Assembly: GCA_017554615.1 (NCBI GenBank)
Contig: JAFZHY010000013.1
Coordinates: 1-64,000, forward strand
Source of the DNA: Clostridia bacterium
GTDB taxonomy: Bacteria > Bacillota > Clostridia > UMGS1840 > HGM11507
DNA: 64,000 nucleotides
Direction: 5' to 3'
Position 1 is the stretch's first letter. Every line of letters starts with the position of its first letter. Position numbers and translations under genes: made by a program. The notes beneath the pieces are model-generated. The model was not told the origin of the DNA, ran no database searches, and saw nothing but the letters and a program-made list of their open reading frames with translations. Below are positions 6,152-18,163 of this stretch, piece by piece.

Positions 6152-7564
6152 CTATATTTCTTCAACTTTTATAAGACTTGTATTACCCGACTGACCTGTT
6201 GTATTTCCGCCTGTAATAACAATTCTGTCTCCTTCTTTTAAATTAAGAGTCTCGGTTGCTATTTTTTTAGCATTATAAAATAATACATCGGTAGATGTGA
6301 ATTTTTCACACATAGCAGGAATTACTCCCCAGGAAAGTGCAAGTCTTCTCCATGTGTTTTCATTGGTTGTAAGACCTATAATAGGCACTGACGAACGGAA
6401 TCTTGATACCATTCTTGCTGTCATCCCTGAAATTGAACAAGCGACAATAACTTTTGCGTCAAGGTCGATTGCCATACCACAGGTGGAATGAGAAATAGCA
6501 TCAACAGCATTTTTGATTTTAAACTCAAAATTATGAAGCCTTTTATTATATTTAATATTATTTTCGGTTGTTTCTGCTATTTTTGACATTGTTTCAACTG
6601 CTTTTACAGGATATTTTCCGACTGCAGTTTCTCCTGATAACATAATTGCACTTGTACCGTCATACACAGCATTTGCAACATCTGATATTTCTGCTCTTGT
6701 AGGGCGTGGGTTATAAATCATAGTTTCTAACATTTCGGTTGCAGTGATTATTCTTTTGCCGAGCAGTCTGCACTGAGTTATAAGTTTTTTCTGAATTGCA
6801 GGAAGTTCATTAAAAGGAACTTCAACACCCATATCTCCTCTGGCAATCATAATACCATCACACCAGTCGCAAATTTCTACGATATTATCTATCCCTGCCT
6901 GATTTTCAATTTTTGCTATAAGTTCAATATTTTTTGCATCTATTTCTTTTAAATATTCGTGGATATCTATTAAGTCCTGTTTGCTTGAAACAAAGGAACA
7001 GGCTATATAATCTATTCCGTTTTTTATCCCGAAGGCTATATCTTTTTTATCCTGCTCAGAAAGATATTTCTGCTTCATAACTTTACCAGGAAAACTCATA
7101 CTTTTTCTGTCTGAAAGTTCTCCGCCTATTACAACCCTGCAGATAATATCTGTGTTATCCACTTCTTTAACTTCAAAACTTAAAAGACCGTTATTAAGAA
7201 GGACTGTGTCTCCTTTTTTAAGTTCATCTTTAAGGCCTTTATAACTAACAGAAACTATACTTTCATCCCCTATAATATCTCTTGTTGTAAAGGTAAATGT
7301 ATCCCCTTCCAAAAGAGTTATTTTACCATCCTTAAATGTTTTTATCCTGTATTCAGGGCCTTTGGTATCAAGCATAATAGCGATAGGCAAATTAAGTTCT
7401 TTCCTGACACTTTTTATCATATCAATTCTTCTTTGGTGGTCTTCATAAACACCGTGAGAAAAATTTAATCTTGCAACATTCATACCCGCTTTACACATAC
7501 CTACTAAAACTTCTTTTGTTTCACTTGCAGGGCCAACGGTACAAACAATTTTTGTTTTGCGCAT
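6152..7564 (-). CDS. pyk: Pyruvate kinase
   Basis: The last step of glycolysis, PEP + ADP to pyruvate + ATP. It is 470 aa from ATG at 7564 (MRKTKIVCTVGP). An upstream in-frame start at 7627 would fall inside the promoter -35 box, while AAGGAG sits just before 7564, so the shorter start is right. Family motifs seen are ARLNFSHG, MLDTKGPE, the KIENQAGI catalytic lysine region, ARGDMGVE and TATEMLETM. It lacks the extra C-terminal PEP-utiliser domain that many Bacillus-type pyruvate kinases carry. It lies downstream of pckA, an enzyme of PEP metabolism, but has its own promoter and terminator. Confidence 0.97.
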   Translation of the reverse strand: MRKTKIVCTVGPASETKEVLVGMCKAGMNVARLNFSHGVYEDHQRRIDMIKSVRKELNLPIAIMLDTKGPEYRIKTFKDGKITLLEGDTFTFTTRDIIGDESIVSVSYKGLKDELKKGDTVLLNNGLLSFEVKEVDNTDIICRVVIGGELSDRKSMSFPGKVMKQKYLSEQDKKDIAFGIKNGIDYIACSFVSSKQDLIDIHEYLKEIDAKNIELIAKIENQAGIDNIVEICDWCDGIMIARGDMGVEVPFNELPAIQKKLITQCRLLGKRIITATEMLETMIYNPRPTRAEISDVANAVYDGTSAIMLSGETAVGKYPVKAVETMSKIAETTENNIKYNKRLHNFEFKIKNAVDAISHSTCGMAIDLDAKVIVACSISGMTARMVSRFRSSVPIIGLTTNENTWRRLALSWGVIPAMCEKFTSTDVLFYNAKKIATETLNLKEGDRIVITGGNTTGQSGNTSLIKVEEI

Positions 7565-9459: not shown

Positions 9460-9620
9460 AATATTTTCTCCTCTCAAAAATATATTATAATTTTTAAATT
9501 AAATTGCATTATAAAATATTACAATCGTAATTATTATACAATAGTTTTTCAAAAAAATAAAGTATTTTTTTAAAATATTCATATTAAATTTACTTTTACT
9601 TATTTTTTGATAACTTATGC
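9460..9620. promoter_or_regulatory. pckA leader and promoter region
   Basis: A gene-free, very AT-rich stretch. On the minus strand TATAAT (9538-9533) is the best -10; the hexamer 17 bp upstream (TTTATT) is a poor -35. The 5' leader to pckA would be about 70 nt and shows no clear fold. Nothing else is recognised. Confidence 0.5.
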
Positions 9621-9652
9621 AAAAAACTCCGGCAGGCTGACCGGAGTTTTTT
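9621..9652 (-). terminator. Strong intrinsic terminator upstream of pckA
   Basis: AAAAAACTCCGG and CCGGAGTTTTTT form a 12-bp stem with an 8-nt loop and a T6 run on the minus strand. It ends noc or the candidate RNA before the pckA promoter. It is symmetrical, so it could also work on the plus strand. Confidence 0.9.
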
Positions 9653-9776
9653 GTAAATAGATTTTTTCACCTGTTACGGATATTATATAAGGGGATTTAC
9701 AATATCTTACAATTAAGAACACAAAAGGGGGTGTATTCTTAATTTAAACAGGTGTAATGGAGAATGGGGTTTTTTT
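9621..9776 (-). ncRNA. Candidate structured C-rich small RNA or noc 3' UTR
   Basis: Read on the minus strand, 9754-9747 pairs with 9675-9668 (8 bp). Inside are two more helices: 9744-9736 with 9719-9711 (9 bp, plus 3 bp nearer the tip) and 9706-9701 with 9684-9679 (6 bp). The result is a compact three-way junction. Both hairpin loops carry C-runs (CCCCUUUU at 9730-9723 and UCCCCUU near 9695-9689), and another CCCC lies at 9769-9766. A clean intrinsic terminator follows at 9652-9621. There is no strong promoter just upstream, so processing from the noc transcript is possible. C-rich loops recall RsaE/RoxS-type sRNAs that bind Shine-Dalgarno sites; that role is inference. Confidence 0.4.
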
Positions 9777-9830
9777 AAATATTCCGTTTAGTTTAAAAGT
9801 TAAAACTAAAGATGCAAAAACGGAATATTT
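9777..9830. repeat. 13-bp inverted repeat after noc
   Basis: AAATATTCCGTTT (9777-9789) is matched perfectly by AAACGGAATATTT (9818-9830). An inner AGTTT/AAACT pair (9790-9794 with 9803-9807) extends the fold. It begins 3 bp beyond the noc stop. Neither strand has a terminator-type T-run directly after the stem, so it may stabilise a 3' end rather than stop transcription. Confidence 0.55.
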
Positions 9831-9833
9831 AAG

Positions 9834-10697
9834 TTATTTATTATTAGGTAGATTTTTATCTACTCTAATGACATATTCAATAAAGTCATCCGTTTCTTTC
9901 TTGTTTGACTTTATAAGCAGCCCTGACTGTCTTATTAAATCAACAGTCTGATTTATGGTGCTTGAAAAAATTCTTAAATCTTTAAACAGGCTTACACATC
10001 TTAATTTAGTGTGATTTTTTTTATTTTCTCTTTTTACCTCGCCCAAAAGTCCTAAAATAAGGCTTTCGGTCTGGGCTACATTTAAGTTTTTGCTTATTAT
10101 TTCATTTATTGCTTTTTCTCTTAATTCATATTCATCAAGTTTAATTAAACATCTTGCATGGCGCTCGGTAAGGTTATTATCAATTATTATCTGCTTAAGG
10201 TCAGGCTCAAGTTTTAAAAGCCTTAATTTATTTGCAACGGTAGATTGGTTTTTGCCTAATTTTTTTGCAAGTTCTTCCTGTGTCAGATTACATTCTTCAA
10301 TTAACTTTCTGTAACTGTCTGCTTCTTCAAAAAAGGTTAAATCATGCCTTTGTATGTTCTCTATAATTGAAAGAACCATTGATTCTTCTCTTGAAAATTT
10401 CTTAACAATAACAGGAACGGTTGCCAAACCTATAAGTTTTGCTGCCCTTAATCTTCTCTCTCCTGCTATTAATTCATATAAATCTTTTTCTATCTGCTTT
10501 ACGGTTAAAGGCTGGAGTATTCCGTGCTCTTTTATTGAACGGGATAATTCATAGAGTTTGCTCTCGTCAAAATCTTTTCTCGGCTGATATTTATTTGGAA
10601 CTATCATATCAGGCGAAATAAACATTAAACGAGGCTTGTCCACAACTTTTGCACTTATCATATTAAGCATAAAAAAATAACACCGTCCTTTCTTCAT
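9834..10697 (-). CDS. noc: Nucleoid occlusion protein (ParB/Noc family)
   Basis: A 287-aa ParB-fold DNA-binding CTPase. GERRLRAAK (residues 79-87) and ENIQRHDLT form the CTP/clamp region, and TQEELAKKLGKNQSTVANKLRLLKL (about 139-163) is the helix-turn-helix. That HTH, the ERHARCLIKL segment and the RIFSSTINQTVDLIRQSG tail match Noc better than chromosomal ParB. It follows rsmG, the usual noc position, and no parA is adjacent. The start is uncertain: ATG 10697 lies about 5 nt after the predicted transcript start, while ATGs at 10670 and 10661 lack a well-spaced ribosome site. The basic-aromatic start MKKGRCYFF resembles Noc's membrane-binding helix, favouring 10697. Confidence 0.85.
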   Translation of the reverse strand: MKKGRCYFFMLNMISAKVVDKPRLMFISPDMIVPNKYQPRKDFDESKLYELSRSIKEHGILQPLTVKQIEKDLYELIAGERRLRAAKLIGLATVPVIVKKFSREESMVLSIIENIQRHDLTFFEEADSYRKLIEECNLTQEELAKKLGKNQSTVANKLRLLKLEPDLKQIIIDNNLTERHARCLIKLDEYELREKAINEIISKNLNVAQTESLILGLLGEVKRENKKNHTKLRCVSLFKDLRIFSSTINQTVDLIRQSGLLIKSNKKETDDFIEYVIRVDKNLPNNK

Positions 10698-17326: not shown

Positions 17327-18163
17327 ATGAAAAAATTATTACTTACTCTTATACTTATATTTACTTTAACATTACCTGCCAATGCATATTATACTACAGA
17401 TTATTTAGTTCCATACACACTTAGTGTTAACGGAAATGTTATAGAAACAGAAGACAACAGTTATATAATTGATAACACTGCTTATGCACCCATAAGATTT
17501 GTTTTAAACGCTATCGGGATTTACGAAATGGAATGGGATAATTCTGAAAGAAGCGTTACATTTTCTCATAACGATACTGTGGTTAAACTTTATGAAGGAT
17601 ATGATTATGCTTTTATAAACGATACACAAGTTAAACTGGATAATTTAGTTCTAATAAATAATGACCGTACACTTGTTCCTGTTCGTTTTGTATCAGAACT
17701 TTTTGGTTTTTATGTAGACTGGAATAACACTTTTTATATTGTAAACCTTGTTAAAGACGAACTTAAAGTGGACGAGGGTATAATAGAGAAAGACTACAAT
17801 TTAGATGATGTTATGTGGCTTTCAAGAATTATTGAGGCAGAAAGTTCAGGAGAACCTTTTTCAGGAAAAATTGCAGTAGGAAATGTTATTTTAAACCGTG
17901 TTAAATGTGATGAATTTCCTGACACTATTTCAGAAGTTATATTTGACAGGAAATTCGGCGTACAATTTCAGCCTGTGGCAAACAATAAAATTTATAATAC
18001 CCCCTCTAACGAAAGTGTAATGGCAGCACTTCTTGCTATAAGGGATGTTAATCTGGCAGGAGACAGTTTGTATTTTCTAAACCCTGTTATAGCAACTAAC
18101 AGATGGATATTAAATAACAGAACATATTATACAACTATAAATAACCACGATTTTTATTTATAA
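17327..18163 (+). CDS. Cell-wall hydrolase with stalk domain and SleB domain
   Basis: A secreted 278-aa protein starting at ATG 17327 (GGAGG 6 nt before); an upstream in-frame ATG at 17285 lies in the promoter and is rejected. A signal peptide covers about residues 1-20 (KKLLLTLIL...NAYY). Next is a copper amine oxidase N-terminal-like stalk domain (about 28-135) with NTAYAPIRFVLNAIG and DRTLVPVRFVSELFG, then a SleB/hydrolase_2 domain (about 155-278) opening MWLSRIIEAESSGEPFSGKIAVGNVILNR. SleB enzymes are lytic transglycosylases of spore cortex; the catalytic Glu is likely in IIEAE. Vegetative wall remodelling is an alternative. Confidence 0.88.
   Translation: MKKLLLTLILIFTLTLPANAYYTTDYLVPYTLSVNGNVIETEDNSYIIDNTAYAPIRFVLNAIGIYEMEWDNSERSVTFSHNDTVVKLYEGYDYAFINDTQVKLDNLVLINNDRTLVPVRFVSELFGFYVDWNNTFYIVNLVKDELKVDEGIIEKDYNLDDVMWLSRIIEAESSGEPFSGKIAVGNVILNRVKCDEFPDTISEVIFDRKFGVQFQPVANNKIYNTPSNESVMAALLAIRDVNLAGDSLYFLNPVIATNRWILNNRTYYTTINNHDFYL

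Follow-up and report, generated by a model that had tools for sequence, protein, structure and literature searches.

The minus strand between noc and pckA in the window (the whole 64,000-nt stretch of clostridial DNA that was analysed) holds a C-rich segment for which a structured RNA had been proposed from the sequence, and this raises the question of whether such an RNA is real, which of its neighbouring genes it belongs to and how it may act. The gene upstream of it is noc (9834–10697, minus strand), encoding a nucleoid occlusion protein of the ParB family; the identities of noc, pckA, pyk and rsmG are upheld by NCBIfam, the noc match scoring 309.6, slightly below its cut-off of 315. The core of the C-rich RNA, comprising a leader, a three-way junction and a conserved tail, occupies 9655–9771 and is co-directional with noc and pckA, all on the minus strand. 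The RNA can be assigned to this strand because its helices include three G-U pairs (two in arm P2 and one in arm P3) whose plus-strand equivalents would be A-C mismatches, and because the shuffle comparison of the fold favours the minus strand. The folding energy of the minus strand at 9655–9771 is −27.3 kcal/mol, compared with −9.4 ± 2.3 kcal/mol for shuffled sequences (z = −7.8, 0 of 200 as good), and the homologue in the genus relative L033 gives z = −7.4, whereas the plus-strand values are weaker, at −2.7 and −4.2, respectively.

The fold is, as the preliminary description had it, a closed three-way junction with an 8-bp closing helix; this helix, P1, pairs 9747–9754 (5′ strand) with 9668–9675 (3′ strand), and the joining segments, expected to be 2–4 nt long, measure 2, 4 and 3 nt. 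Both arms exist but are longer than first described: P2 (9711–9744) has 13 bp, uninterrupted in the minimum free-energy structure, in place of 9+3 bp, and P3 (9679–9706) has 9 bp, one G-U pair included, in place of six. The C-runs anticipated in both loops are present (CCCCCUUU at 9724–9731 in P2 and AAUCCCCUUA at 9688–9697 in P3). The C-rich stretch placed immediately upstream of the junction corresponds to the unpaired leader motif ACCCCAUUCUCCAU (9757–9770), of which the part CCCCAUUCUCC is conserved across the four GTDB-family genomes compared. On the other side of P1 lie the unpaired tail AAAAUCUAUUU (9655–9665) and the intrinsic terminator with T6 that had also been noted (9620–9653; CTCCGG...CCGGAG), which is palindromic on the plus strand too. 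A separate hairpin (9777–9830), located past the noc stop codon and ahead of the C-rich leader, has no U-tract and is not a terminator.

L033 (SVKB01000012.1), the nearest pckA relative among public genomes, carries this RNA at the corresponding place between noc and pckA; it and the contig G001:C1 are one and the same record (SVKB01000012.1, both 65,429 bases) and were counted once. Its stems diverge in sequence and length while the unpaired C-rich motifs stay, the elements common to both species being ACCCC(C)AUUCUCCAU, the P2 loop (CCCCCUUU / ACCCCCUUUUGU; identical in L033), the P3 loop CCCC(C)UUA, carried on a rewritten stem, and the identical tail AAAAUCUAUUU. A terminator again follows, with a different sequence, and the hairpin after noc has a counterpart in GCCGUG-CAUCA-CACGGC. 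In alignment A5, which was adjusted manually and padded with N, is anchored by the conserved motifs and contains two sequences only, 12 of the 34 pairs are double-changed (five of the nine comparable pairs in P1, one in P2 and six in P3), all comparable cells pair (100%) and none is broken, whereas structures with slid pairing partners gave only 0–2 double-changed pairs. Compensatory change in the helices of relatives, which had been named as a check on the fold, is thus seen between these two sequences, and each of them reaches the junction shape independently by free-energy folding. The C-rich RNA is almost certainly a real, conserved and uncatalogued structured RNA.

Its full form has a narrow distribution. 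A DNA similarity search of 60 relatives returned only the copy in the genus relative (G001), the remaining matches looking like chance, and two covariance models (R1 and R2) applied with strict filters to 118 relatives and 391 genomes of the class found the full junction in two genus members only, the core in the window being matched by R2. The leader motif reaches further. When CCCCAUUCUCC was sought in 21 genomes, it was intergenic once per genome in four of four genomes of the GTDB family, always downstream of noc and followed by a terminator; all other matches fall inside long reading frames. In G002 and G003, from the family's two other genera, the motif downstream of noc reads CCCCC(C)AUUCUCCUUUCG and stands directly before the terminator, without a three-way junction. 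In the next family of the order, only a plain terminator follows noc and no C-rich motif is kept. The RNA is followed by an unrelated gene in G002 and by what looks like the beginning of an rRNA operon in G003, and pckA is absent from the sequence adjoining the noc-linked motif in the other family members. Since CCCCAUUCUCC also follows noc in G002 and G003, the RNA goes with noc and not with pckA.

As to function, conserved unpaired C-rich motifs, a conserved fold and an end at an intrinsic terminator are found together in this RNA, and from these sequence features it is probably, on balance, a small regulatory RNA that binds Shine-Dalgarno sites. The transcript would be either the 3′ end of the rsmG–noc mRNA or the product of a promoter of its own at the end of noc; the junction would space the two C-rich loops so that each could serve as a pairing site; and both loops, together with the leader, would pair in trans with the G-rich ribosome-binding sites of several mRNAs and so block their translation.

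Predicted pairing was evaluated against the start regions of 1180 called genes and, comparatively, against 460 ortholog pairs with G001 (about half of that genome being covered). The strongest predicted pairings lie 15–18 nt upstream of start codons, in the Shine-Dalgarno zone, and surpass those within coding sequence; the P2 loop, for example, pairs at −12 kcal/mol or better with 138 start regions vs 39 in coding sequence. However, reversed motifs pair with start regions nearly as often (104 v 88, 138 v 98 and 56 v 43), so the pairing reflects C-runs meeting G-rich ribosome sites and is not proof of specificity. Ribosomal-protein genes, with start regions that are conserved in any case, are numerous among the best pairs conserved with G001, along with assorted others. 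No specific or central-carbon target set emerged from the 1180 start regions or the 460 ortholog pairs; the target scan of the C-rich loops that had been suggested thus points to generic anti-Shine-Dalgarno pairing, with no metabolic focus.

A scan of intergenic terminators covered this genome almost whole (1,277,454 bases) and about half of G001 (1.07 Mb). Among 192 such terminators in this genome with at least 40 nt upstream, only two loci have at least three CCCC runs upstream, namely the RNA described here and a second C-rich small RNA candidate on contig C27 (about 17590–17815, minus strand; L186, L312), next to an nrdR-like gene. The half of G001 likewise yields two loci among 227 intergenic terminators, which are homologues of the same two RNAs, that of the C27 RNA lying on contig C3 of G001 at 6540–6755 on the plus strand. 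The C27 RNA has its own conserved TATAAT promoter region, a 5′ hairpin, CACCCCCC/AACCCC runs, a hairpin whose loop reads UAAUCCCC and a terminator, and its stems too are rewritten in G001. This set of two loci is the best support for the idea of a C-rich regulatory RNA put forward in the preliminary description.

The strongest competing explanation is that the structure serves the noc transcript alone, in cis, as a 3′ UTR structure that ends the rsmG–noc mRNA, stabilises it or guides its processing, and has no targets in trans. The RNA follows noc in four of four family genomes, and no U-tract terminator was found between noc and the RNA. In both genus members, the hairpin without a U-tract starts a few nucleotides past the stop codon of noc. 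The end of noc itself (9841–9887, minus strand), which contains a hairpin (AUUAG-GUAGAU..AUCUAC-CUAAU) that can form across the stop codon, is unusually conserved at the nucleotide level: the last 45 alignment columns are 98% identical to L033, compared with 68% for the whole gene, despite a frame-shifting indel. No convincing promoter for the RNA was seen; such conservation could be explained by a promoter or a processing signal, and our first guess is that the C-rich RNA derives from the noc 3′ UTR. However, what is conserved in the RNA is the unpaired C-rich motifs and not the stems, and mere stabilisation would need no such motifs; moreover, both genomes contain, at another locus, a second C-rich RNA served by a TATAAT promoter of its own. 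We consider a role confined to the noc transcript rather unlikely, albeit deserving of real weight.

A second alternative is that the RNA is a decoy that mimics the tail of 16S rRNA and titrates mRNAs or initiation factors, without chosen targets. The motif in G002 and G003 reads CUCCUUUC, like the anti-Shine-Dalgarno tail CCUCCUUUC, and the pairing with start regions is broad and not specific, as such a decoy would have it. However, CUCCAU takes the place of CUCCUUUC in the genus version, and the loop motifs correspond to G-runs and not to the Shine-Dalgarno complement proper, which makes this explanation improbable.

The RNA might also be a true but diverged member of the RsaE/RoxS family, a likeness that had been suggested at the outset. 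Control by ResDE/SrrAB and by nitric oxide is a mark of that family. Among 4227 Rfam families none matched at the gathering score; sub-threshold matches to AfaR, SpF25, rimP and the His leader were inconsistent between the homologues and were dropped. RsaE (RF01820) matches weakly at 9620–9757, in an alignment that places the P2 loop on the first C-rich loop of the model and AUCCCCUU on its linker motif. However, this match, at 22.1 bits (E = 0.18 over the 4227 families), is far below the gathering score of 79, RsaE is not matched by the L033 homologue at any E-value up to 10, the model prefers other places in a whole-genome search, and it contains no three-way junction. Because of the score and the missing match in the homologue, the C-rich RNA is not filed as RsaE, and membership of the family is very improbable. 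What stands of the suggested likeness is a plausibly similar mode of action through exposed C-rich sites, since several exposed C-rich regions, in loops and in single-stranded sequence, do precede the terminator.

Matches of the RsaE model elsewhere in relatives do not represent this RNA. G001 has up to about 20 of them, many of which represent a single dispersed repeat about 93 nt long (for example C34:30–122, C16:505–600 and C1:43562–43654), which is itself sRNA-like, with a palindromic hairpin, a C-rich TTTCCTATCCCCTCTG and a terminator-like hairpin AGGGGCTGTAAAT...ATTTACAGCCCC.

The upstream sequence of pckA has features of its own. The TATAAT of the pckA promoter (9533–9538, minus strand) comes after the terminator of the RNA and precedes the pckA start by 79 nt; of the 15 genomes compared, 11 have a perfect TATAAT in front of pckA. 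The genes that precede pckA are different in most relatives, including genomes in which a close pckA is found. Weakest of all is therefore a pckA leader (a riboswitch or attenuator that would sense a metabolite and terminate transcription at 9620–9653), since, for all that an aptamer-like junction followed by a terminator does lie upstream of pckA, the gene has, judged by sequence, its own promoter beyond the terminator, the RNA accompanies noc in genomes whose adjoining sequence lacks pckA and inspection revealed no anti-terminator pairing common to both species, which leaves this reading hardly credible and a location of the RNA in the pckA 5′ UTR unlikely. The cis role for pckA that had been offered as the alternative is accordingly disfavoured, and the proposed connection with pckA, pyk or central carbon metabolism finds no support, given the linkage to noc, the separate pckA promoter and a predicted pairing without metabolic focus.

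Returning to the interpretation as a small RNA that binds Shine-Dalgarno sites, the distribution of Hfq within the family may bear on how it works. Hfq (PF17209) was not found in either of the two genus members, and it is present in G002 and G003; the coincidence of Hfq absence with the presence of the junction is suggestive only. A doubtful extension is that an uncatalogued noc-linked family of C-rich RNAs, with simple members in Hfq-containing genera, developed into a closed three-way junction with extra C-rich loops in the genus that lacks Hfq; a rigid scaffold would thereby replace the chaperone, and this RNA and the second small RNA would together make up a small regulon independent of Hfq. 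The family, whose members differ in whether they have Hfq and in whether they have the junction, offers a natural comparison for chaperone-free action.

The proposed design has parallels among characterised RNAs. The short RsaE/RoxS RNAs (RF01820) resemble the C-rich RNA in having several C-rich regions, with CCCCUUUGU-like motifs in loop and linker, followed by a terminator, and in RoxS/RsaE these regions pair with ribosome sites and block them (PMC4409812); they differ in lacking a closed three-way junction and in gene context, besides the score far below threshold here. LhrC of Listeria monocytogenes has three redundant CU-rich sites in loops and in a single-stranded stretch, which is the same distribution of C-rich patches, and its effect on lapB is independent of Hfq (PMC4132741). 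However, LhrC is multicopy, consists of two stem-loops and a linker, uses its terminator loop as the third site and has no sequence relation to the C-rich RNA in the Rfam scans. The Rsa RNAs and RNAIII of S. aureus share exposed C-rich UCCC loops that pair with Shine-Dalgarno sites (PMC3861533) but have other folds, hosts and loci, and FsrA and CsfG of Bacillus subtilis likewise carry C-rich regions in predicted single-stranded segments (PMC4409812) but differ in layout and gave no Rfam match here. C-rich small RNAs that bind ribosome sites have thus been described in Bacillus, Staphylococcus and Listeria, and the present candidate, which has a defined architecture and evidence of covariation, would add uncultured gut Clostridia to these hosts.
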